In this document: piece by piece, positions 27,635-55,500 of the stretch | How positions within the stretch are numbered: the first letter of the stretch is position 1 | Layout: every line of letters begins with the position of its first letter | From: Stentor roeselii | Taxonomy: Eukaryota > Ciliophora > Heterotrichea > Heterotrichida > Stentoridae | Direction: 5' to 3' | DNA length: 64,000 nt | NCBI GenBank assembly: GCA_006503475.1 | Contig: RSEH01000243.1 | Location: 1 to 64,000, forward strand | The notes under the pieces: model-generated | What the model was told of the DNA's origin: nothing | Databases searched by the model: none | What the model saw: the letters and a program-made list of their open reading frames with translations, nothing else | Translations under genes and position numbers: made by a program

Positions 27635-30600
27635 ATGCTTGAAAGTCCAGATCTCTCTGAAGGTTTTATGACAGCTTCTTTCAAACCAGAATTCAGCAAC
27701 ACCCTAAGCATGCCTACACCCCCCCAGATCACTTCAACAAAATCACTAGACGACTACATTTTATATGAAATGAATGAAAAGTTGAATGAGGCAAATCAAG
27801 TTTCAGACATCGGCTTTCATAAAGACTTCGTTCGTGCGATTTCCATTTGCGCTGACGGAAGATTTGCAGCGAGTGGCTCTCTTGACAAAAAAGTCACAAT
27901 CTGGGACTTAATCGAAGTAAACAAGCGATTCCAAGAATACGAGCATCTCGACGCAGTAAACTCGTTACAATTTAGCCCAGACTGTAAATGTCTAGTTTCA
28001 GGATCAGCAGATACAACAGTTAAAGTCTGGAGTTTGACTCGTCGTCGAGAATATGCAACTTTTCGAGGACATTCGAAACAAGTAACATCAGTTGTATTCC
28101 TTCCAAGCGGGAAAACAGTTGTAAGCTGCTCAACTGACGGGTCTTTAATCTTCTGGAACCTTGCAAGTCGCACCCAAGAAAACATTTTAAAAGTGCAGGA
28201 AGGAGAATTGAACTCTTTATCTATTTCAAAAGACGGTCTTTATTTAGCCTCGATAAATGATAATAAAATTATCAGGCTTTGGAATGTGAATAGCTTAAAA
28301 GAAGAGATCACTTTGAAACAAAATGAACATAGAGCCATTTGTCTCGCTTTTTCACCTCAAGGAGATTTTTTAGCATCAGGGTCATCAGACTGCAAAGTTA
28401 ATTTTTGGAATCTTCAGTTGAAAAATGTTGAGTTCTTCCTTCAAGGTCATGTGAAAGCTGTCCTTGACCTCGCTTTTGACTCGACTGGGAAACTCTTAGC
28501 TTCTGGTTCTTCTGACAAAAGTATAAAATTCTGGGATATTGAAAATAGAAGAGAAAAATTTTCACTTTTAGGACATTTTTCATGTGTTCGGTCGATTTCT
28601 TTCTTAAGAGAATCAAACTTTTTGATATCTGGGTCTGATGATAAGTCAGTGAAACTTTGGAATCTTACTGGAAAACGTGAACAAATCATCTTTAGTGGAC
28701 ATTCAGACACGGTTAATTCACTTTCTTTATCAAAAGATTTGAAAATTATTGCATCTGGTTCTTTTGATAAAACAATAAAAATCTGGAATTTTGAATCGAA
28801 AACTGAAGAATTTACATTTAAAGAACATACGGAGAGTGTTTATTGTGTTTGTTTTAACTCGGATGGAAGATATCTTGCTAGTTGTGGAGATGATAAAGTA
28901 GTCAGAATTTTGGATATTGAGAGAAAATCACAAGAGTTTTTACTTGAAGGACATAAAAATAGCATTAATTGTGTTGTTTTTTCTAATGATGATCAAATTC
29001 TAGCAAGTGGAGATGATGATTATTTAATCAAGGTTTGGAGCTTTATGAAGAGAAAAGAAAAATTCACACTTGTTGGCCATGAGGGTCATGTTATTTCTGT
29101 GAAGTTTAATAAAAACTCTTCTTTATTGTTTAGTGCATCAAATGATCATACTTTGAGAATCTGGGGAATTGCTGATAGGAAAAATTTATTTGTACTTAAA
29201 GGACATCATAATTGGGTTAGATCTTTTGATCTTTCAAGCGATGAAAAGCTATTAGCTAGTGGTTCTTTTGATAAGACTATCAAAATCTGGAATCTTCAAG
29301 ATAAGTTGATTTTAAATACTTTAGTCGGTCATACTGAAAATGTCAGTAGTGTATGCTTCAGTCCATGCCAGAAATTTATTCTTAGTGGTTCATATGACTG
29401 TACAATGAAGGTTTGGAATTTAGAGCAAAAAAGAGAAGAATTCACAGTAAGAATACATTTGGACATAATAAGATCAGTATCCTGGACATCAGATGGAAAG
29501 TACATCTTAGGAGCCTCAGCAGACAACACATTTCGAGCCTGGGGATTAGAAGAAATAAGAAAAGAAGTAACTCTTTCAGGACACACTAGTTACTCCTGTT
29601 CATTAAATTTCTCATCCGATGCAAAATTCTTAGCGAGTTCAGGTTCAGACTCGAAAGTAATTGTCTGGAATTTAAAGACCAAAATAAAAGAACATGAATT
29701 TCCAGGATCTTCAAAAAATTACAGTTCTTTAGCATTTTCTCCTACTTCAAAATTTTTATCTTGCAGTTCAGAAGACTTTTGCATAGTCATTTGGGATCTG
29801 GAAACTGGAAAAGAAGAAGGAAAACTTGCAGGTCATACAGATTATGTCACTTGTATTCTTTATTCTTCTGATGGATCTTTATTATATAGTAGCTCGTTTG
29901 ATACTTCGATAAGATGCTGGAGAGTTAATGAAAAAGTCATAATTTTTTCATTTCATTGTAATTCGAATCCAATTTTAACTATTTCTCTTTCATATAACAA
30001 CAAGTTTTTGATTTCTGGAGGATATGATAAAAGTTTAAAGTTATGGAATATTGAAAAGCAAAGAGAGGATTATTCTTTTTTTGGACATTCAGGTATTGTT
30101 TATTCTACTTGTTTTTCACCTGATAGTGCACTGCTTGTAAGTGGATCGAAAGATAAAACTCTTAATCTGTGGAATGTTAAAAATAGAAGGCTTGAGTTTA
30201 CTTTTGTAGAGAAGTCAGAGTTTTATTGTGTTAGGTTCTCATGTGATAGTTCATTTATTGTAGCTGGTTGCGAGGGTGGGAATATAAATATCTATAATGT
30301 CAAGGAGAAGAGGCTAGAGTTTTCTATCTATAGAAATTTGAAAAGTGTTTATCCGGTATGCTTTTCCCCTTGTGGAAATGTTATAGCCGCAGGGTACTAT
30401 GATAACTTTATAAGAATCTTCGACATTGGAGAAAAGTTATATTTAAATACCGGATTTTCAGAGCTTTCAATAATGCTTGAAGACTGCTTTGAATCCTTAT
30501 CCTCAAACAAAAAATATTTACTACAAAAGACTCACTCAGGCTTCAAAATATTATCAAGCCCATCAATGACGCAAGTAACTCAACTCAAAATACTTTCATA

Positions 30601-32515
30601 CGAAAATTTTCTTCTATTTCTAGAAATAGAAGGAAGAAAAGTCCAGTTCAACCTTCCTCACCCCATCCAACTTTCAAAACGTGTGAAAGATTTACTCAGC
30701 TTCCAGAAGAAATTTAATTGTTTAGTAGAAATTCGAACTGAATGCTTTGATACTTATAGCAATTCTTACTCTCCTAATTCCACTTTTGATTCATTTTACT
30801 GTAATCCCCTTTACTTGCTTGGGGTAATCAACTGGTTGAACAAAGGAGATTTGAGTCAATTATCAAAACATTATCTTAAGTTCAGGTTGTTTTGTTTTAA
30901 TTACAGCGTCTTGCATTTCGCTGCATTTAAAGGAGAACATTTGGCTATAGAGAAAATTACTGAAGCTTCTGAGAGTACTTGCTTTAGAAGTGATGCTTTT
31001 GGAAAATCTCCGCTTTACTATGCAATTAAAAATAATCACCAGAAATGTATTCAAAGCTGTTTAAATTATTTGATAAATTATCAACCTTCTAGAAATGAAG
31101 ATTTGATTACTAGTCTGTTGGCAACTAGGCATGACTTTGAATTGATTCTTCAAAATTCTTCTTTGGAACTTCCGAATTTCTTGAATAAGCTTCTGCTTGA
31201 ATGTGAGTATATGAGTTTGCCAGGTGTTGATGAATTACCAATAATAGAGCTAAGAGATTACTTATTTCCTCAAGCAGAAGACTTTACCTTCGGTTCTTCA
31301 CAACAGAGTACTCCTGTGATAATAAAATACTCAGCATTTGAACTCCCACTGCAACCTTATTCTCATGATAACCTTAAAGCTCTCAAAATAATAAGAAACT
31401 GTTCAAACACTCGAATTTACGACAATCTCATCGTCAAATATTTTATTGAATACAACTGGGAATCGATTTACTCTTGGGCCTTTATGTATTCTATTTTGAT
31501 CCTTCTTCAATTAATTTTCTTCTTATTTGCGGTATCAAAGGGAAGAACAGACTTTGTATCAATTCTTATGTTTTCGTTTATTTACCTTTTGATCTTCTCA
31601 TGGGAAGTACTGCAGATGGTTTGTACAGGCTCAGAGTACTTCTCTGATTATTGGAACTGGGTTGATTTATTAAAACTTTTGCTGGCTATTTACTGGGTAC
31701 TTGCAGGGTATCTAGAAATTGATTCTCCTTATGAATCTTTTTTCTTAGCGCTTCTCTTATTAATTAGAGGCTTAACTTTTTTCAGAATGTTTCAAGGGAC
31801 ACGTTATTATATTCACTTAATCCTAGCATCTCTAGAGAGCATAAAATACTTCATCGCTGTTTTCTTCTACTCAACATTCTTTTTTTCTGCTTTATTTTTC
31901 GTGATTGAGCCAGGTGATGGAACAATATCATGGCTGATTGAGCTTTGTAAGCGTTCTTGGCAGATCAATATAACCGGAGATACAGAAATAGACAAGAACA
32001 ATATCCTAATATACATAACAATATTCGTAGCGACCATTGTTAATGTCATCCTTATGCTTAACATGTTAATTTCTATACTCGGAGACAGCTACGACTTATT
32101 CATGGTTGAAAGAAACATCATCGACTGTAGAGAAAAAATCGACGTCGTTCTTGAATTTCAAACTGCCTTGTTTTGGAAAAAAGCTTTAAACCAAAATAAA
32201 TTTTTACATGTTCTTGCTTCACCTTTTGAAGATCATGAAAGCACTGATGATTGGCAAGGAAGGATTATCTTTAGTGAGAAAAAACAGGAAAAAAGAATTG
32301 AAGATCTAATTGCCAGGACTGCTGAAATTGAAAAAAATATCAATGAAACTGTTGCTAAATCTCATAAGGAGATCTCTTTGAAACAAAGTAACTTAGAAAA
32401 TTTGATAGATCAAAAAATTACTGAGACTCATGAAAAGGTGAATGAAATTAATGGAAGGATGCTTGGATTTGAAAATAAAATGGATGAGATTCTTAGTTTT
32501 TTTAAGTCTAAATAA
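27635..32515 (+). CDS. WD40-ankyrin-TRP-like cation channel fusion, 1,626 aa
   Basis: ATG at 27635. Residues about 55-935 are roughly 20 WD40 repeats of about 42 residues, many nearly canonical (SGSFDKTIKIWN occurs twice). Residues about 1085-1150 resemble ankyrin repeats (SVLHFAAFKGEHLAIEKI, then GKSPLYYAIKNNHQKCI). Residues about 1275-1490 hold six hydrophobic segments with a short loop before the last (PGDGTISWLIELCKRSW), then VILMLNMLISILGDSYDLF. This is the pore and S6 layout of TRP/polycystin-type channels. The last 80 residues are a coiled coil that could drive tetramer assembly. The predicted product is a membrane cation channel carrying a very large propeller array in place of the usual N-terminus. 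The frame is intact with no in-frame stop. Propeller plus channel in one chain is unusual, and the gating ligand is unknown. Confidence 0.85.
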   Translation: MLESPDLSEGFMTASFKPEFSNTLSMPTPPQITSTKSLDDYILYEMNEKLNEANQVSDIGFHKDFVRAISICADGRFAASGSLDKKVTIWDLIEVNKRFQEYEHLDAVNSLQFSPDCKCLVSGSADTTVKVWSLTRRREYATFRGHSKQVTSVVFLPSGKTVVSCSTDGSLIFWNLASRTQENILKVQEGELNSLSISKDGLYLASINDNKIIRLWNVNSLKEEITLKQNEHRAICLAFSPQGDFLASGSSDCKVNFWNLQLKNVEFFLQGHVKAVLDLAFDSTGKLLASGSSDKSIKFWDIENRREKFSLLGHFSCVRSISFLRESNFLISGSDDKSVKLWNLTGKREQIIFSGHSDTVNSLSLSKDLKIIASGSFDKTIKIWNFESKTEEFTFKEHTESVYCVCFNSDGRYLASCGDDKVVRILDIERKSQEFLLEGHKNSINCVVFSNDDQILASGDDDYLIKVWSFMKRKEKFTLVGHEGHVISVKFNKNSSLLFSASNDHTLRIWGIADRKNLFVLKGHHNWVRSFDLSSDEKLLASGSFDKTIKIWNLQDKLILNTLVGHTENVSSVCFSPCQKFILSGSYDCTMKVWNLEQKREEFTVRIHLDIIRSVSWTSDGKYILGASADNTFRAWGLEEIRKEVTLSGHTSYSCSLNFSSDAKFLASSGSDSKVIVWNLKTKIKEHEFPGSSKNYSSLAFSPTSKFLSCSSEDFCIVIWDLETGKEEGKLAGHTDYVTCILYSSDGSLLYSSSFDTSIRCWRVNEKVIIFSFHCNSNPILTISLSYNNKFLISGGYDKSLKLWNIEKQREDYSFFGHSGIVYSTCFSPDSALLVSGSKDKTLNLWNVKNRRLEFTFVEKSEFYCVRFSCDSSFIVAGCEGGNINIYNVKEKRLEFSIYRNLKSVYPVCFSPCGNVIAAGYYDNFIRIFDIGEKLYLNTGFSELSIMLEDCFESLSSNKKYLLQKTHSGFKILSSPSMTQVTQLKILSYENFLLFLEIEGRKVQFNLPHPIQLSKRVKDLLSFQKKFNCLVEIRTECFDTYSNSYSPNSTFDSFYCNPLYLLGVINWLNKGDLSQLSKHYLKFRLFCFNYSVLHFAAFKGEHLAIEKITEASESTCFRSDAFGKSPLYYAIKNNHQKCIQSCLNYLINYQPSRNEDLITSLLATRHDFELILQNSSLELPNFLNKLLLECEYMSLPGVDELPIIELRDYLFPQAEDFTFGSSQQSTPVIIKYSAFELPLQPYSHDNLKALKIIRNCSNTRIYDNLIVKYFIEYNWESIYSWAFMYSILILLQLIFFLFAVSKGRTDFVSILMFSFIYLLIFSWEVLQMVCTGSEYFSDYWNWVDLLKLLLAIYWVLAGYLEIDSPYESFFLALLLLIRGLTFFRMFQGTRYYIHLILASLESIKYFIAVFFYSTFFFSALFFVIEPGDGTISWLIELCKRSWQINITGDTEIDKNNILIYITIFVATIVNVILMLNMLISILGDSYDLFMVERNIIDCREKIDVVLEFQTALFWKKALNQNKFLHVLASPFEDHESTDDWQGRIIFSEKKQEKRIEDLIARTAEIEKNINETVAKSHKEISLKQSNLENLIDQKITETHEKVNEINGRMLGFENKMDEILSFFKSK

Positions 32516-33080: not shown

Positions 33081-34651
33081 AAAAGATGTCACTTATCAAA
33101 TAGTTAAAAGAGAAAAACATGTATTTTCCAGAAAAATAATTAAGCAGAAATCAATAAAGAAAAAGATTTTGAAGCACTTTATATTCAAATGAAGTACCAT
33201 TTTAAGAACACAAAAATAATAAGTAACTCAAGTATCTGTAAAATTCCTAAATCTCTGAAATTTTAATTCGAAAGTAATAAGCAACCATTTATCTCAGTAT
33301 TTTTTTTAATAATTCCAAGAGTTTCTGAAAATTCTTACCGCAGGTTCTACAGAAAACAATTTGATTACCTAAAAACTAAAAGATCATCTAAAAATACCTT
33401 AAAGCAGGATAATTTCATGAAATTTGAAATACTCAAAAGTGTTTTGAAATAAATAAACCTTGGTTAAAAGTAATTGAATTTTAAAAATAAGAAGTAGGAT
33501 GCTATAAAAGAAACTCGGCCTCATTTGGGTTCTTGAAAATCTCTTGTGTTAAACCCTTAGTCTCTTATTTCTGTAATTGACAATTGGAGATGGTTAAGAA
33601 TAAAATTGTCTTTTAGTAAACTTTCTACCAAATCAAATATTTTAATTTTATTTTATTTTTATGCTTCTTTATCTGTTTTATAAAATTTTACTGTTTCGAT
33701 AATATTTTGTAGGGAATGTATATGTTTCCATTGCAGTCTAAAATATGCCTTCTCATGGTTTTTATAGGTAATTCAAAATCTGTAAATCTTTAAATATATT
33801 TATTTAATGCTAGATACTGGTTTGGACAATTAAAACTGAATCATATGTAGAATATATCATCTCAGGTCTGCAGTAAAAAAAAATTTGATAATTTTCAATA
33901 TTTGAAGTTGAAGTATTTTTAATACAATGTGATTATTTGTAAAATTATAATAATATAATAGTAAAATATTAGTTTCTATTTAACACTTGTTTCTCTATTA
34001 AAACTAAAATTCATAAATAATATAGATATAAAATTTAATTTTATTATTAGCCTTAAAAAACTAAAGCATCTTCATTCAAAATGATCAAATATTGTTAAAA
34101 TCATTGAAGAAATAATTATTGAACTATTTTAAATTTCTAAATACATTAAGAATCCTGAAAAAACATTAAAATATATCATAAGTTTTAAATTTAGCATCTA
34201 ACTCTATAGGAATAAAGTATCATAAGTAATCTTATCATGATATATACACAACTAACTATCTCTCTAAAATAACAAGAGATCCACCTAAATAAAATAGATC
34301 CTTATCAATTACTAAATCAATCCTCTATCAAAAACTGAAACAATAAACTCTTTGATTAAGAATTTTATCGGAATATCTATATAACCTAAAAAAATCAATA
34401 TAATACTCACAAACTTTAAATTACGTAAATAAAAACTTTAATAATCCAAATTCACAGAGTATTGAAAATTAAAAATATTTTCAAAGCTATCGATTATCAG
34501 CTGATATTATCATAGCCATTCTACCATTTATATACAAAAGCTCACATTCCCAAAACTTTCATAATCCTATCTAATTTCGCTAAAAATCATAAATTCTTCC
34601 CTAAGTCTTATTTAAATCTAAAAAATTCTAACTTTTCGTCTTTGCAGCAAT

Positions 34652-34758
34652 CAAAATCTTCCATTTATTCACCAGTTATCCAGTTATATTAATCTCTCCC
34701 TCAATTCCACTTCAATCCAAAACTTCCATTTATTCACCAGGTCTCCAGGTATAATAAT
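34652..34758. repeat. Two 42-bp direct repeats upstream of the DOMON gene
   Basis: The units are 34652-34693 and 34717-34758, sharing CTTCCATTTATTCACCAG and then TCCAG, TAT and TAAT in register. They lie 120-220 bp upstream of the ATG at 34876, so they could be promoter or 5' leader elements. They could equally be a chance duplication. Confidence 0.6.
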
Positions 34759-34875
34759 TCCTCTCAACTGATCATTCAACCCAAGCCCTTCTACCCAAAG
34801 CCTTGAAAATCCCAACATCTCAAATCAATCCTTTTTCAACAATATCAAAGTGTCTTCCCTAAACATCTCAAATAA

Positions 34876-37800
34876 ATGGCTGTAGAATTTATTCTGCTCT
34901 TGATCCAGGGCGTGATATCAGCGCCAGCCTCTGTTGTGTTAGATTCAAAATTCCACCTTGGGTGGAGCTTCAGCGGATCTGATGTTTCAATGACATTCAA
35001 TGTAAGAGCTGCTTAGTGCTTCAACATTTTCAGCTGGTGTGGACTTGACTTCACCTACGGAATGGAGAAGACTGAGATGATTGTTGCGTTGTCTGATAAT
35101 AATCAAGTCACTGTCACTGATTATTACAGTAAAGAGTTCACCAAACCCACTCAGGTCCTTTCAACTTTTACAGTAACCAGTTCGGTCTCGAATAGCTCGG
35201 GAATCTTTGTCACTTTTACCAGACCTCTTAACACTGGAAATAAACTTGACCAGATTATTAGTCCAGGGCTTAAGACTCCGATTAGTTTTGCCTATTTGAC
35301 TACTGCTAATAAAGGATTTGAAAGGCATAATAATATTGGAGAAGGGTTATTGATTATGGGAGTTGACCAAGACCACTCTATCTTCATATCAGGTTCCAAC
35401 ATAGTGACTCCAATGATCCAACTCGACAACAACTTCACATTCGGCTGGGACTTCACTTCAGGAGCAATTTACTTTTACTTCAACGTAATCCCTACCTAGT
35501 GTTACAACATCCAAGGATGGTGCGGAGTGACCTTCATTCAAGGCATGCAAGATACAGAAATGATAATCGCCTACAACAACAACAGCATAGTTGAAGTGAC
35601 TGACTATTACAGTTTCGGATATCAACAACCCGAAAACTTCACCGGAATCAACCTTCAAGTGACTCAAGCTTTAGTAAACAATTCAGGAATCTTCGCCACA
35701 TTTTCACGACCTTTAACAGGAAACCTTTACACTCAGAACTTTTCAATCGGTGGAGTGACTTACTTGAGTTTCGCGTACCTGACAACAGGAGGTCAAGGGT
35801 TTATAAGACACAACCGTATCGGCAAAGGGACTTTAGTGACAGGAAGTCTTCAATCAACATCACAATTCGTATCAAATGCAGAAGACCCTCCAGTGATAAG
35901 CCTTGACAGTAACTTCACTCTTTCCTGGCAGTTTTTAAAGAACTTAATCGTTTTTACCTTCAGCGTATTTTTTAAGTAGTGTCAAAACATGCTAGGGTGG
36001 TGCGGTGTTTCTTTCGTCCATGGAATGGAAAACACAGAACTGATCGTTCTTCAGAACATAAACAGCTCCTACCTGAACCTGACAGACTACTACAGCACTG
36101 GTTATCATCGTCCAAATCAGACAACAGGTACAAGTTTCAGCATTTTATCTCAAGAAATCACTCCTGTCGGCTTCATGGCTTCTTTTTCACGACTTCTGTC
36201 TCCAGGAGGACTGGACCAGAGCCTTGCGCCTGGACAATGCCAAGATTTCAGCTATGCCTACCTCGTGCCAGGTGAAATCGGGTTCAAGCAGCATAATCAT
36301 GTTGGAATTGGAGCTCTTACCTTTGGTGTCGACAGCAACTCTGCGAAGTGGCTGCCTGACGGCAGCTGCCTGGCCACTGTGTCCTTCGACCAGAACTTCA
36401 GCATGTCTTGGGTCTTCAGTCCAAGTACTATCAACATCACTTTCAATGTACTTTTCATTTAGTGCTATAATATCTTCAGTTGGTGTGGAGTTACTTTCGT
36501 TCATGGAATGAATAACACTGAGATGATTATTTTACTTAATAATGCGGGTACTTTGAAGATCACTGACTATTACAGTACTAATTATGTACAACCTGTCAAT
36601 GTGACTGGCTCGAAATTGACTTTATTGCAGTCAAGTGTCACAGAAAATGGAATTTTTGCAACGTTTTCAAGACCTCTTAACCAGAATAATACGAAAACAA
36701 CGACTATTACACCTGGAATGAGAAGTGACTTCGGCTGGGCTTATCTTTCTACAGCTGACCAGGGACTTCAGCCTCATAATAACAAAGGAATAGGACTGAT
36801 AATATTCGGAGTTGACGCAAATTCAGCAAAGTTTATTCCTGGAGGGTCGAATACTCCTTATGTGACTCTTGATAACAACTTTAACCTTGGCTGGAGTTTC
36901 ACTGATTCGACAATTGACTTTAAATTTGATGTAAGAAAAATTTAGTGCTTTAATATCGGCAGCTGGTGTGGGATTAGCTTTATTCATGGAATGGTTGGAA
37001 CTGAGATGATTGTTGCTCTTTACAATGGAGAGGAGATCACTGTTACTGACTACTACAGCACACAAGCTGTGAGGCCTACAAACTTGACACATATGCCTTT
37101 GTTTATAACGAATAGTTCTTATTCAAGTGCAGGACTTTTTGTGGAGTTTTCAAGACCTTTAGGATCGATTTCGCCTCAGACTGTGAAGTTCTTTCCAGGG
37201 GTTTCATTTGATTTCAGTTTTGCGTATTTGACGGATGTGAACCAAGGATTTCAACATCATAATCACATCGGCACTGGATTGATCAAGTTTGGAGATACGG
37301 CAAGTAACTCTTTTTTCCAACCAAATGGAAGCCTTCCAGAAGCTGACGCTCCGTACTTCAGACTTGTTGACGGTTTCTATCTTGGTTGGCAATTCGGAGG
37401 TTCTACTATTACCTTCACGTTCAATGTAAGATTTAAATAGTGTTTCAATATCCAAGCCTGGTGCGGAATCAGCTTCGGAGGAGGCATGCATGGATTAGAA
37501 ATGATAATCGTTCAAAGTAGCGGCGACAACGTAAAGATCACCGATTACTACTCCTATTCCAACACTAAACCTTCTGAAACACTTCTATCATTAACTAAAA
37601 TATCAGGAGTTACCAACAAAACAGGAATTTTTGCCACTTTTTCAAGACCTTTAAGCACATCAGGAAAAGCATATGATCTTTCTATAAACTCGACATTAAA
37701 ACTAGGAGTCGCATATAGAAGTTCAGGAGGTTTCAGTAAACATAACAAAGTCACATCTGGCAACATTAAATTCGGTTTAACCAACAGTACTTCCAGTTAC

Positions 37801-39525
37801 GGAGACAAAGGAGACAGTGAGTCGATCGACTTAGACTACTACCGAGACCACGGAGTTTACATGAGCGTGATGTGGATCGGAGTATCACAAGCGGCAATAA
37901 TCGTAATGCGGTACTTCAAATGGTGGACTTTTTCAGGTCTTTTCCATACAATGCTCGGAACCACTGCAGTAGTGGTAACTTTAGTCTCTTCATACAAAAC
38001 CTATAAAAAAGACAAAGTCGCTTACAAAGACCTAGACGCAGAAGGAGAATATAGAGACTTCTTATATCATTCTAGAATCGCTTTCACCATGTGTGGCCTG
38101 GTCTTGACTCAGTTTTTCCTGGGAGTGTTTTTCAAGTTCATGCAGATTTTCAAGAAAAATATTAAAATCAACAACTTTTCTAGACTTGTTCATCGAGTGG
38201 TAGGCTGGACTTTACCAGTCATGGGCTTGATCAATATAAAATTCGGGTGGCATCTTCATGGGCAGTCTTGGAAGAACCGGGAGTACATTTACCCGATGTA
38301 CGGTGTTTTATGCTGCATTCTCTTTTTATTTGAAATGAACTTCCAATTTGGAGGACCCATTCGTAAGCATCTTGTTAATTTAAAAGCTGTGGCTCTTCAG
38401 TATTACCGAGGAGGAGACCCTGAACTTAACAGGACTTTAGTAACGGAAGACTCACGAGAAAGAAGAAGACATTGCGAAGTATTTGAAGAAATCATGAACA
38501 ATAGAAAAGATTGGGTCTTTTATGATGAGTTTATTTTGGATATCGCTGGGTTTAAATGGAATCATCCAGGAGGGTCTTTTGTGTTTAAGAGAATTGCAGG
38601 GCAAGATGTTGGGAAGTTCTTGAACGGCGGGTCAAACATAGATGACAACTACCGGCCTTACTTCCACTCAAACCAAGCGAGGAACATAGCAGAAAATCTG
38701 GCAATAGGTTATATTTCTTTTCCTCGTGATTTATTTTTATCAATAAACAACTACGAAACAATGTCAGACATGAAATGGAATTTAACAAATAGAACTTTTG
38801 TAGCAAAAGGCACTTATTGTTTGGAATTCAGCTCTTATAACTGGGAAATCAATGAAGAAGCCCCTGGATATGATTGGATTGGAAAACATTTCTTGGTCAC
38901 TTCAAGAGTTGGTGGAAAGATACTTAATCGATATTATTCATTCGTACTTGTTAACTTGGCCTCTTGGGCTGATGAAGTCAGAGAGGCAGGCATGCAGGCA
39001 AAAGTTTACGATGTGAAAAAGCACCCAAATAAACTCAGGCTTCACATGAAACATTATCCTGGCGGGTTAATGACTGATCATCTTTCTTCTATTCCATTAG
39101 GCACTCAAATTCAGTTTAAAGGCCCAATTGGACCTGGAATTTGCACAGATTCTTTTAAAGATAAAGAATTTCTTGTTTTTGGGGCAGGAACTGGAGTTCT
39201 TCCTTTCCTTGACCTGGTTTATGCTATTTGGAAAGGACGAGTTTCGAATAGTGTCATTCATATGTATATGTCTTTTAGAGATGATGCTTCTAGCTTTGCT
39301 GTGGACTTGGTTGAAGCAACGGCGAAACACCACCCACGAAATTTGAAGCTTTATACTCGAATTGGACAGAAAGGATTTGAGTTGCATGCAGAGTTCTGGA
39401 GGAATATGCTTCCTTTACATCTTGCTGAAAAAGCATGGATCTGTGGACCTCCTGTGTTTAACAGAAAGATTGAAAAAATCCTTATTGATGAAGGGTTCAA
39501 CCCGGGTAAGATTTTATTGCTTTAA
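34876..39525 (+). CDS. Six-DOMON, cytochrome b561, cytochrome b5 and flavin-reductase fusion (1,519 aa after splicing)
   Basis: Seven exons (34876-35001, 35017-35484, 35500-35964, 35980-36447, 36463-36930, 36946-37425, 37441-39525) joined by six 15-nt introns keep one frame. A signal peptide comes first (MAVEFILLLIQGVISAPA). Six DOMON domains follow, each with LD-x-x-F-x-LGW, an N-terminal Cys and WCG, HGM-like, TEMI, VTDYYS and FSRPL motifs. Then comes a cytochrome b561 membrane core with haem-ligand candidates in LFHTMLG, YHSRIAF, RLVHRVVGWT and GWHLHG, and a cytochrome b5 domain (NHPGG, with second His in PYFHSN). It ends in a ferredoxin-reductase-like module: RYYSF for flavin, GAGTGVLPF for the pyridine nucleotide and WICGPP near the C-terminus. 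The protein should pass electrons from NAD(P)H through FAD and b5 to b561 and across a membrane to the lumenal or extracellular DOMON haem domains. The acceptor is unknown. Confidence 0.88.
35002..35016 (+). other. 15-nt intron 1 of the DOMON gene
   Basis: GTAAGAGCTGCTTAG, phase 0, after codons for TFN and before CFNI. It carries an in-frame TAG as its last three bases, so the message must be spliced to be read through. Confidence 0.92.
35485..35499 (+). other. 15-nt intron 2 of the DOMON gene
   Basis: GTAATCCCTACCTAG, phase 0, at the same domain position as intron 1 (before CYNI). Confidence 0.92.
35965..35979 (+). other. 15-nt intron 3 of the DOMON gene
   Basis: GTATTTTTTAAGTAG, phase 0, same domain position (before CQNM). 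Confidence 0.92.
36448..36462 (+). other. 15-nt intron 4 of the DOMON gene
   Basis: GTACTTTTCATTTAG, phase 0, same domain position (before CYNI). Confidence 0.92.
36931..36945 (+). other. 15-nt intron 5 of the DOMON gene
   Basis: GTAAGAAAAATTTAG, phase 0, same domain position (before CFNI). Confidence 0.92.
37426..37440 (+). other. 15-nt intron 6 of the DOMON gene
   Basis: GTAAGATTTAAATAG, phase 0, same domain position (before CFNI). No further intron is needed in the b561-b5-reductase part. Confidence 0.92.
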
Positions 39526-42271: not shown

Positions 42272-43009
42272 TTAATTAACGAACTTACCAAATTCATAAT
42301 TAACCGAGCCTTCTCTACTATGCACCTCAGAGAAACTCGGCGCTTCATCATCATCTCCCTGCAACTGCATCAAATAATTACTACAGTTCAAAGCTCCAAC
42401 ACTAATTTCATCAAGTTCTTCCGAAGTGACACTTTGATTAAAGTTGCTTTGAGAACTACTTAAATGGTTTGATTCACTAGTTTGTTTCGGTTTTTTTACT
42501 TGTTTTGACGGGCGAATCTTGGGTTCTGCCTTTGCTGTTGTGACTTCTGTCAATAGCAATCCGATTGGATTGGGCTCTGAACCTGGAAGATGAGAAGGCT
42601 CGATTGGTGAATGAGAAAAAGGCGAGAATTCTCTTTCAGTGTTTTCTTGAGAATAAGGCAAGATACTTGTGTTGATCACTGTGTTTATCTCTGAGACTCT
42701 TCCTGTGTTTTCGTAAAATGCAAAGTTGTTCAAGTCTTCGAATTCTTTGCTTAGTGATAAACCGAGGGAAAGCTTGGATGACGTGCTTTGACGGAAGGGA
42801 CTGGAATTTAGAAGGTATGATCGAAGGGTCTAGATAAAGGTTACTAGTCGGTCTTGGTTTGTCATGTAAAGGAGGTATCGTAAACGGTTTATCTCGTTTC
42901 GAAGCTGATCGGGTGACATGCTTTGAATCTCGTAGATGAATTTGCAATCTTTTAACTTTTCTGATATCAAATTGTCTAACTGAATTGAGTTTGTATAAAT
43001 TTCACTCAT
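42272..43009 (-). CDS. Unknown ciliate-type protein with one 15-nt intron (240 aa)
   Basis: ATG at 43009 (MSEIYTNSIQLDN). Without splicing the frame meets a TAG after NQDRLVTFI. Removing the 15-nt intron 42830-42844 joins NQDRL to TLRSYLLNS and continues open to TAA at 42272. The N-terminal 50 residues are helical (LRNEINRLRYLLYM). The rest is rich in Ser, Glu and Pro and looks disordered, with an acidic patch near the C-terminus (GDDDEAPSF). No domain is recognised. It is divergent from the PDCD2-like gene with 5 bp between start codons. A decayed copy of the same pair lies at 39.5-40.7 kb, so this arrangement is older than that duplication. Confidence 0.75.
42830..42844 (-). other. 15-nt intron in the 42272-43009 gene
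   Basis: On the minus strand it reads GTAACCTTTATCTAG, phase 0, with an in-frame TAG as its last codon. Its removal restores a single frame. Confidence 0.88.
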
Positions 43010-52500: not shown

Positions 52501-55500
52501 TTTGTAGTAGTCCCAGTCGATGACTGATTGAAAACTGAATTTATCTATTTTTTTAGAGTCTGAGTCTTTAAGCCAGTTTTTTAGGTATTTATTTTTTTCA
52601 GCTTCTGGAAGAAGGAATATCACAGCAGGAATCGCTCTTTCGGTTACTGGAGAACCTATAGGCTTTTGAGAGATTAGGATTTTACAGTTGAGGCCTTTGT
52701 CTTTTATTATTTCATTTCCGAGCATTTCTCCGAGTCTTTTTGCGACTGTGATTGAAAGAGACTTTTGAGAACCGTATTCTTCTACTGCTTTGCTTAAAGT
52801 GCGATTTTCACAGAGGAGGTCGATTAACTCGTCTATGTCGATTCCTTGGCCACGGTACTCGAGGATGTCCCACCATTTATCTGCTACGGACCCTGCTGCT
52901 TTGAAACATTCATTTAAAGAGGTACCCGCGAGGAATGTGTCGAATATTTCTTCTTGGAAGACTTTTATTAGTTTTAGTTCACCTTTTCTTTTTAGTTCAA
53001 AACCTTTTAATTCTGTCATTTTGCCTGAGTGGTTGAAAACTGCGTATCTTTTTTTTAGCATTTTGTTTTCTTCGGTTGATGCTGGGATTATCATTGCTCG
53101 ATATGGACCGTCGATTTCGAAGAAAACTGACATCTCGGTTCTGATGTGGTAGTTCCCGTCAATCAGATCCTGATACTGATCATTTTTAAACTCATCATAA
53201 ATCAACAAGTTGAGCATACTACAAGGATAACTCATAAAAAGTTTCTTTCCCGAATGAGTAACAATAGTGAAATTCTCCGGAAACCCAGAAGGTAACATAC
53301 ACCAGATGCCATCAGTATCAAGTTCAAGTGGTTTTCCAATTTGTTCAACAAGTTCCCTAGACCTGGTAATAATATTAGCACCCATATGAGTGACCATTCC
53401 AGCCATTTCCATCGAGTACCACCGAGCACCTTTTCTCATGACATATCCATAGAAAGAGTTCAAAATGATTTTATGTGCAAGCTGAAGACTTTCAAACAAA
53501 GTCATCCGTTCTTCAGCCTCTTTGCATCCGAGTACATCGCCTTTCCCTGCAGCTTCTTTCATACTATTTCCAGCGACTTTGACAAGATTTTTATATTCAT
53601 ACCTCCTGTCTCTGAAGTCACGGACAGTATCGACGTAGAAGCTATTTTCTCTCATACAGACCGTATCAGATTTTAGTTCTTTTTTCGTGGTGTGCATTGT
53701 GTTATAGGCTTTTTTGCAGTAGTCCTTTACTCGTTCCTTGATCTTCAAATGCTGCTCCTCAACAGGTAACTTTAAAAAAGAGACTCCGTTGAAAATATCT
53801 TGTTCCAACTGAGACTTGATTCCTTCATATTCCCCTTTTTTTAAAGGAAACAACTCACCTCTCCATTCCCAGTTCAAAGGCCGTTTACATCTGTTATCGC
53901 CTGAGTTAAACAAGCAAGACGAGCAGTTGACTTCATTGACAATCGCAGTGGGTTGAAGGCGGTTAGACAAGATGATATTCGGGTACATTGCAGCGACATC
54001 AACATGGTAAATCAAAGGTCTTACTTCACTAGACGAGTTTTCCTTAATCTGCTCTAAGGCCTGAATGATTTTCATGCGAATTTCCGCCCGATTCGAAATT
54101 TCCATCGGGTCAGTCTTCTGTTCGACCTGTGCACAGAAGTCAATGGTAAGGTCGACCTGTTCAATAAGTCTTTGATATGTATTAGAATTTAATTTAAACT
54201 TGACAGGAATATCACTTCTATAGACCCCGACCTGAAGGCACTCGACATGTCCTCCAATGTAAGTTTCAGACTCAATCAAATTTCCATTATAAAATTTTTC
54301 CCGTTGTTCAACAGTCTTATTAGGAAAGACGATATTTCTCGAGTAAGCCTTTGCCATGAGAAGGTCTTCACAAAGTGTACCTGATCCTTTTCGCAAGATA
54401 TCATCAGGGCAAAGGGGGATGATCGTGCTGAGGGCGAAGATGAAATCGTGTATCATTTTTTTATAAAGGTAAAAAGTGGCAACTGCATCTGAGACTGAAT
54501 AAGCTGCAAGGTCGTTTGGCCTTTCTTTGGCGTAAGGCACCATGTCTTCTGGGTCAAGTTCGACTGGATCGTACCCGAGTTTCGCTTTTGTCACTTTTTT
54601 TAAACCATGAGAACCTTGCGGCAGGTACGCGTCTCGCTTTACCCAGTAAATACAGTCCATGTGAACTGAACAACGACCTTTGTACTCTTCTTGGTCCTCA
54701 TAAATTCCTATTTCTCGTTCCATGTCAATTCCACATTTCTTACTACGTGTGTGAATATAGGGCCAGTCGAAGAAGTCACCGTTAAAAGTCACGAATATCA
54801 CTGGACGAGTTTCTTTTATATGATCGAAAAAACGACGGATTGCTGCAGATTCACTTTCTTCATTGAAAACTTGGAACTTTCCCTCGTATTCTGACTTTGG
54901 AGTGTACTCGAAGTCGTCGATGTTGCCTGAGATTATCTCACGATTAGTAATCAAAAAACCCTGGCCGTCAATCATATAAGAAATCATCATAATCGGGTCT
55001 CTTTCAGCAACTGGAAACTTCAAAGGCAATTTAAAAGTTTCTAAGTCAAAAGCAAGAACCCTAAGATTCGGATTCACTAATTTTTCAGGCATGAGCTTCA
55101 AAGTAGGCTGGGTATTTCTAAAGCTAACACAATACCAAAGCCCACATCGAATATCAAGGTCGATACAAACTCGAGTATAATAAATAACATCATGTTCTCG
55201 AGTGTCTTCAATGGCTTCTAAGTAGTCTTCGTAATTTTCCTTTTTACCTGGTCGGATCTTTTGACGTATTTTGTTTCTTGTCGCTGTTAAGTCCTGCACG
55301 TTTTTAAATGAAAGTTTTATGTAGCGAGTTGTGAGACCTGATAAGTGGTTCGGTCGGCTTAGGTCGACTTTTTCAACTTCTTCGATTTTTGTGATTGAGC
55401 CGCCGAAATGCTTGGAGATTGCGTTTATTACTTCGGAACGAACATCTTCACGCGCTAATACGTAAAAGTAAGGCTCGTATTTCAAGTGACATTTGAAGAT

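Follow-up and report, generated by a model that had tools for sequence, protein, structure and literature searches.

Six probable same-site 15-nt introns in a predicted six-DOMON flavocytochrome gene of Stentor roeselii

The gene at 34876-39525 (plus strand) in Stentor roeselii raises the question of whether six 15-nt stretches ending with an in-frame TAG, one in each of six DOMON domains, are spliced out or read through, and, if they are introns, how they came to be repeated and what their stop codons mean. The window, which is the whole stretch of 64,000 nt that was analysed, is contig C165 of the genome that was searched (44.4 Mb in 522 contigs). It is very probable that the six stretches are ordinary heterotrich 15-nt spliceosomal introns that were copied together with the DOMON unit, that they are removed to join the exons into a membrane flavocytochrome, and that a transcript retaining one of them gives an error product.

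The gene consists of seven exons of 126, 468, 465, 468, 468, 480, and 2085 nt that encode 1519 residues once spliced. Exon 1 (34876-35001) consists of the start codon, a hydrophobic N-terminus (residues 3-21) that is likely a signal peptide, and the first strands of DOMON 1. Exon 2 (35017-35484) consists of the remainder of DOMON 1 followed by the start of DOMON 2. The same arrangement is exhibited by exon 3 (35500-35964; remainder of DOMON 2, start of DOMON 3), exon 4 (35980-36447; DOMON 3 and 4), exon 5 (36463-36930; DOMON 4 and 5), and exon 6 (36946-37425; DOMON 5 and 6). Exon 7 (37441-39525) consists of the remainder of DOMON 6, a b561-like part, a cytochrome b5 domain, an FAD/NAD reductase part, and the TAA stop. 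The introns between them, all on the plus strand, are intron 1 (35002-35016, GTAAGAGCTGCTTAG), intron 2 (35485-35499, GTAATCCCTACCTAG), intron 3 (35965-35979, GTATTTTTTAAGTAG), intron 4 (36448-36462, GTACTTTTCATTTAG), intron 5 (36931-36945, GTAAGAAAAATTTAG), and intron 6 (37426-37440, GTAAGATTTAAATAG). A direct repeat of 51 nt with a spacing of 65 nt lies immediately upstream of the gene (34648-34763).

The original prediction of six DOMON domains, each split at the same site by a 15-nt GTA...TAG intron of phase 0, agrees with what was read at all six sites, and each of the six introns ends with an in-frame TAG as had been proposed. Pfam PF03351 (DOMON) matches the spliced protein in six stretches with 235.1 bits. 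The intron-to-intron distances are 483, 480, 483, 483, and 495 nt, within the predicted 480-495, and the idea that one exon equals one circularly permuted DOMON domain holds for exons 2-6. The site had been placed between conserved FN and Cys residues, where Cys follows the intron in six of the six domains and FN precedes it in four, the other two having FS and FD. A different organisation is seen at 27635-32515 of the window, where 1626 aa with 17 WD40 stretches are encoded by one uninterrupted open frame, whereas the DOMON gene has an intron for every repeat.

The 15-nt length and the GT...AG ends are common to all six introns, and both were search terms, so the weight rests on the controls, which are other lengths in the window, 16-mers at kinase stops, and five-residue inserts in a kinase alignment. 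In the window scan, isolated in-frame stops overlapped by GTR-N6-A-N3-AG were counted for 15-mers and for control lengths. The 15-mers gave six events, which are five introns of this gene and one at 42830 on the minus strand, against 0, 0, 0, 1, and 1 events at lengths of 9, 12, 18, 21, and 24. Chance occurrence of the 15-mers was ruled out by these length controls. Intron 1 is missing from the six events because its position 10 is G instead of A, while introns 2-6 all have the branch-point A at position 10 (A10). The event on the minus strand is a candidate 15-nt GTA...TAG intron of phase 0 (42830-42844) in a neighbouring gene of the window.

We strongly infer from sequence comparison that the 15-mers are removed by splicing. 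The competing reading is that there are no introns, that TAG encodes glutamine, and that every DOMON domain carries a five-residue VxxxQ insert. The frame is then open across all six sites and Pfam still reports six DOMON domains, although with 220.3 bits compared with 235.1 bits when the 15-mers are left out. In all five single-domain pairs that were compared, one from the window gene and four from paralogs, the spliced form also had the higher DOMON score. The Pfam CDH-cyt scores lean slightly towards read-through, which scores 123.7 over the full-length protein where the spliced form scores 120.5, is favoured in two of the three domain pairs with both forms reported, and is the sole form reported for a fourth pair. 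One paralog also has CAG, a glutamine codon, at the site. However, the fungal cellobiose dehydrogenase (CDH) 4qi3 has an uninterrupted YLKC without insert where the ciliate paralogs have LK before the intron and Cys after it. In the single-DOMON paralogs of contigs C132 and C302, the junction places Cys directly after LK, or after LS in one of them. The spliced coding sequence of the window gene has 52 glutamine codons that are all CAA or CAG, 29 tryptophan codons that are all TGG, and no TGA.

The bases themselves were compared with those of a second six-domain gene on contig C210. First and second positions of the inner intron differ at 7 of 18 sites against 216 of 3040 in the exons (p=1.6e-4), and the ratio of first plus second to third position differences is also unlike between inner intron and exons (p=0.009). 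The inner intron bases thus appear to be without codon periodicity, which is against an insert that is translated.

Stop codons appear to keep their standard meaning in this genome. Internal stops are absent from 16 of 17 HSP70 matches and from 123 of the 135 kinase matches that were scored (1346 candidates), which is also against TAG as glutamine. The 135 kinase matches contain 10 TAG and 3 TAA as internal stops, and 122 kinesin matches contain 14 TAG and 13 TAA (raw counts). Together these are 24 TAG, 16 TAA, and no TGA, as intron-borne stops would be. In-frame TGA was found neither in the window gene nor among the internal stops of the scored HSP70, kinase, and kinesin matches. In every one of the 12 kinase domains with a stop, a 15-nt GTA...AG stretch with A10 lies over that stop, and 11 of the 12 stretches are five-residue inserts in columns that are filled by only 2-5 of 41 kinases. 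The intron of kinase L070 was missed by the gap-column filter of the alignment, yet it was found at the level of stop-bearing domains. No 16-mer alternative was found at the kinase stops. TAG as glutamine is scarcely credible for this gene and was rejected on the codons used, the fit to DOMON, the comparison with CDH, and the lack of codon periodicity.

With removal by splicing as the preferred reading, 35 introns were collected from 18 DOMON sites, 13 kinase sites, and 4 others. All of them are GT...AG 15-mers by search design, and 16-mers were also looked for without success; the isolated-stop method is blind to 16-nt introns, which shift the frame. A10 was no search requirement except for the intron at 42830, and this A, the branch point in Stentor, is present in 34 of the 35. 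The phases are 31 of phase 0, four of phase 1, and none of phase 2; one of the phase-1 calls, the second intron in a C132 gene, is overlapped by a 15-mer that would be of phase 2. Stop-free introns are under-counted since most introns were found through a stop they contain. Two stop-free introns, both ending with CAG, were found by homology, one in a DOMON paralog on C132 (GTACCATCTAAACAG) and one in kinase L056 (GTACTCGCTAGTCAG). Isolated stops (n=31) were overlapped by a GT...AG 15-mer in 16 cases, and the other 15 may be true gene ends or lie in other frames.

These findings are consistent with what has been reported for other heterotrichs, where introns are 15 nt with GT...AG ends in Stentor coeruleus (PMC9505925) and Blepharisma stoltei (PMC9942806), and introns of 15 and 16 nt are known. 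The annotation of S. coeruleus gives a length of 15 nt for 92.81% of its introns (PMC9505925). The branch A at position 10 is likewise shared with Stentor, except for intron 1 of the window gene. Blepharisma is reported to read UGA as tryptophan (PMC9942806), of which the window gene and the scored HSP70, kinase, and kinesin matches give no sign, so that Blepharisma is not favoured as the source. Standard stop codons, the 15-nt introns, and A10 together suggest a Stentor-like heterotrich. The constant length of 15 nt through the duplications, noted in the original prediction, is better explained as a property of introns across the genome and not of this gene. The six introns appear to be ordinary for this genome, with a repetition that would follow from domain duplication.

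The C210 gene has six introns and exon lengths identical to those of the window gene, with protein identities of 83-94% per exon. Several more stretches resembling the 51-nt repeat of the window lie on its upstream side. The exons of both genes differ at 134, 82, and 433 first, second, and third codon positions of 1520, and the two copies appear to be under purifying selection there (dN 0.069, dS 0.63, dN/dS about 0.11). Their introns exhibit 11 differences, every one within positions 7-11, which bears out the original prediction that inner bases diverged at constant length. General limits on length and on GTA, A10, and TAG would have kept the form, while positions 7-9 and 11 drifted.

The intron was also proposed to be older than the domain expansion. 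This is supported by its presence at the same site in 18 of the 18 family DOMON domains that were found (17 with TAG, one with CAG), a lower bound since further copies may exist. Besides the two six-domain genes, it is present in four C132 genes, C393, and C302, where the C132 copy at 54443 (L010) has the CAG form. Because the site is common to all 18 domains, the intron would predate the expansion and would have been copied along. Within this genome, it appears to be older than the family of DOMON-b561-b5 proteins. The ancestral gene would have had a single DOMON domain that already held one intron, located where a DOMON strand ends and before the conserved Cys, and tandem copying of the DOMON unit to six would have carried it along each time.

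The four single-DOMON paralogs on C132 (L009 and L010) lie in two adjoining pairs, and two of them have a second candidate 15-nt intron of phase 1 with a stop overlapping the branch A. Paralogs C128 and C299 exhibit no DOMON domain in the frames that were read and no match in the DOMON search. C307 encodes a distant DOMON protein without a stop at the matching site; a stop-free GT...AG 15-mer with G at position 10 is readable near it and may be an intron. A domain tree had been suggested for ordering the duplications. In this tree, DOMON 2-6 each pair with their C210 counterpart, and no order was obtained; the DOMON 1 copies are unpaired near the base, five forks are open, and C302, C393, and C307 form long branches.

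The original prediction had further proposed that a protein cut short by retention would consist of complete domains only, which could be a quality-control or isoform mechanism. Retention of introns 1-6 would give products of 46, 202, 357, 513, 669, and 829 aa, which contain 0-5 complete domains and about 25-30 residues of the next one, so the truncation is not at a domain boundary. A device special to this gene is also unsupported, as the same in-frame TAG stop of a phase-0 intron is seen in 10 of the 12 kinase domains with a stop. Such a stop is not special because any phase-0 intron ending with TAG gives one. Regulated retention that yields a ladder of secreted DOMON fragments, or acts as a quality-control switch, is highly unlikely. 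It would be compatible with a TAG that stops the frame in each retained intron, with products of 46-829 aa that all still have the N-terminus, and with an intron 1 that lacks A10, so that at least this intron may splice poorly. Against it, the fragments finish inside an incomplete domain, and the same intron form with an in-frame stop is found in kinases and in another gene of the window. It has also been reported that short 3n introns of five other ciliate genera are rich in in-frame stops, a feature read there as serving nonsense-mediated decay, with Tetrahymena (shortest class) as an exception and Ichthyophthirius exhibiting a slight enrichment only (PMC5014332). Nonsense-mediated decay would be the simpler reading of the in-frame stops than a purposeful isoform, and a product of retention would be an error that is ended by the in-frame TAG.

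Retention of the two introns that end with CAG would add five residues instead of truncating the protein. A tentative generalisation, which we hold to be possible but doubtful, is that each splice signal doubles as the stop of one phase, such that an intron that does not shift the frame would nearly always end translation if retained and a change of TAG to CAG would release it. With the same reservation, the signals would be the 3' TAG for phase 0, TAR at positions 9-11 including the branch A for phase 1, and the 5' GTAA for phase 2. The stop is the 3' TAG in 29 of 31 phase-0 introns, the other two having CAG, and TAR at positions 9-11 in four of four phase-1 introns, all of which were found via their stops; there are no phase-2 examples. 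If true, the rare TAG-to-CAG change would make retention a silent five-residue insertion.

Intron 1 (35002-35016) is the sole one of the 35 without A10, so its splicing is doubtful. The window copy could be decaying, with most transcripts stopping after 46 residues and the C210 gene being the working copy, which we regard as rather unlikely and which is compatible with our main explanation for introns 2-6. This would agree with A10 in the C210 counterpart and in the other 34 introns, and with S. coeruleus, where the branch A is reported elsewhere in just 168 of 8173 15-nt introns (PMC9505925). However, no further frame defect is present in 1519 codons, the dN/dS between the copies is low at about 0.11, the branch point might be supplied by A at position 4 or 6, and the profile score of intron 1 (9.94 bits) is the sixth lowest of the 35 and not the lowest.

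The protein itself is more unusual than its introns. Splicing would join the exons into a membrane flavocytochrome of 1519 residues, with nine hemes predicted from ligand residues (six in DOMON domains, two in b561, and one in b5) plus an FAD/NAD reductase. An alignment of 12 DOMON domains, six from the window gene and six from single-DOMON paralogs, exhibits invariant Trp, two Cys, Met, Asp, Pro, Arg, and His. The candidate axial ligands Met41 and His129 are invariant in all 12. A single-domain sequence search of PDB gave one weak, irrelevant match, and a profile search with DOMON found CDH, where Met41 and His129 align with chain positions 65 and 163 of 1d7b, which we take to be the heme ligand residues of CDH. 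The Cys pair is as in 4qi3. CDH has a single cytochrome domain fused to a different flavoenzyme and is a secreted protein. The b heme of the CDH-type domain is reported to have methionine-histidine ligation, with the pair conserved in animal CYBDOMs (PMC10691727), and the same pair has been proposed for Arabidopsis HYP1 (PMC10784544).

The b561-like transmembrane helices (37816-38349) contain four conserved His, at exon 7 residues 137, 169, 210, and 251, where His210 is present in nine of ten rows and the other three are invariant. Pfam Cytochrom_B561 (PF03188) matches seven of ten paralog rows and not the window copy, and a structure model of exon 7 shows the helices at low confidence (mean pLDDT 62.8). 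The b561-like assignment of the window copy rests on its paralogs. The cytochrome b5 domain (38497-38715) is matched by Pfam Cyt-b5 in ten of ten rows with His375 (HPGG) and His409 (exon 7 numbering) both invariant. The reductase part (38734-39522) has RYYS, GTG, and CGP motifs. FAD_binding_6 matches ten of ten rows, NAD_binding_1 only two of ten (the window copy not among them), and a ten-row profile matches the NADH-cytochrome b5 reductase 2eix (E 1.7e-16). The ligand residues and the order of the domains suggest an electron path that leads from NAD(P)H through FAD, cytochrome b5, and two b561 hemes to six DOMON hemes outside.

The CYBDOMs Arabidopsis HYP1 (PMC10784544) and insect CG8399 (PMC10691727) are similar in their secreted-side Met/His DOMON joined to a b561 membrane part, to which the b561-like helices of the window protein would correspond. 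CYBDOMs have one DOMON domain and seldom two (two in 19 of 888 insect CYBDOM matches; PMC10691727), whereas the window protein has six and adds a C-terminal cytochrome b5 and FAD/NAD reductase. A literature search for DOMON and ciliate gave no title on ciliate DOMON proteins among ten of its 48 matches. Such a protein would carry electrons across the cell membrane by a heme relay of uncommon length.

When a domain that contains an intron is duplicated in tandem, every module retains one intron with site and phase unchanged, and exon lengths are divisible by three. The copied intron here differs from the usual case in being merely 15 nt. Most intron-bearing genes of S. coeruleus are reported to have one intron (PMC9505925), unlike the window gene with six by domain copying. 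Copying one intron-holding domain would be enough to make a gene intron-rich even where the genome is of an intron-poor type, and six sister introns on one transcript, one of them without the branch-point A, would allow splicing to be compared directly.
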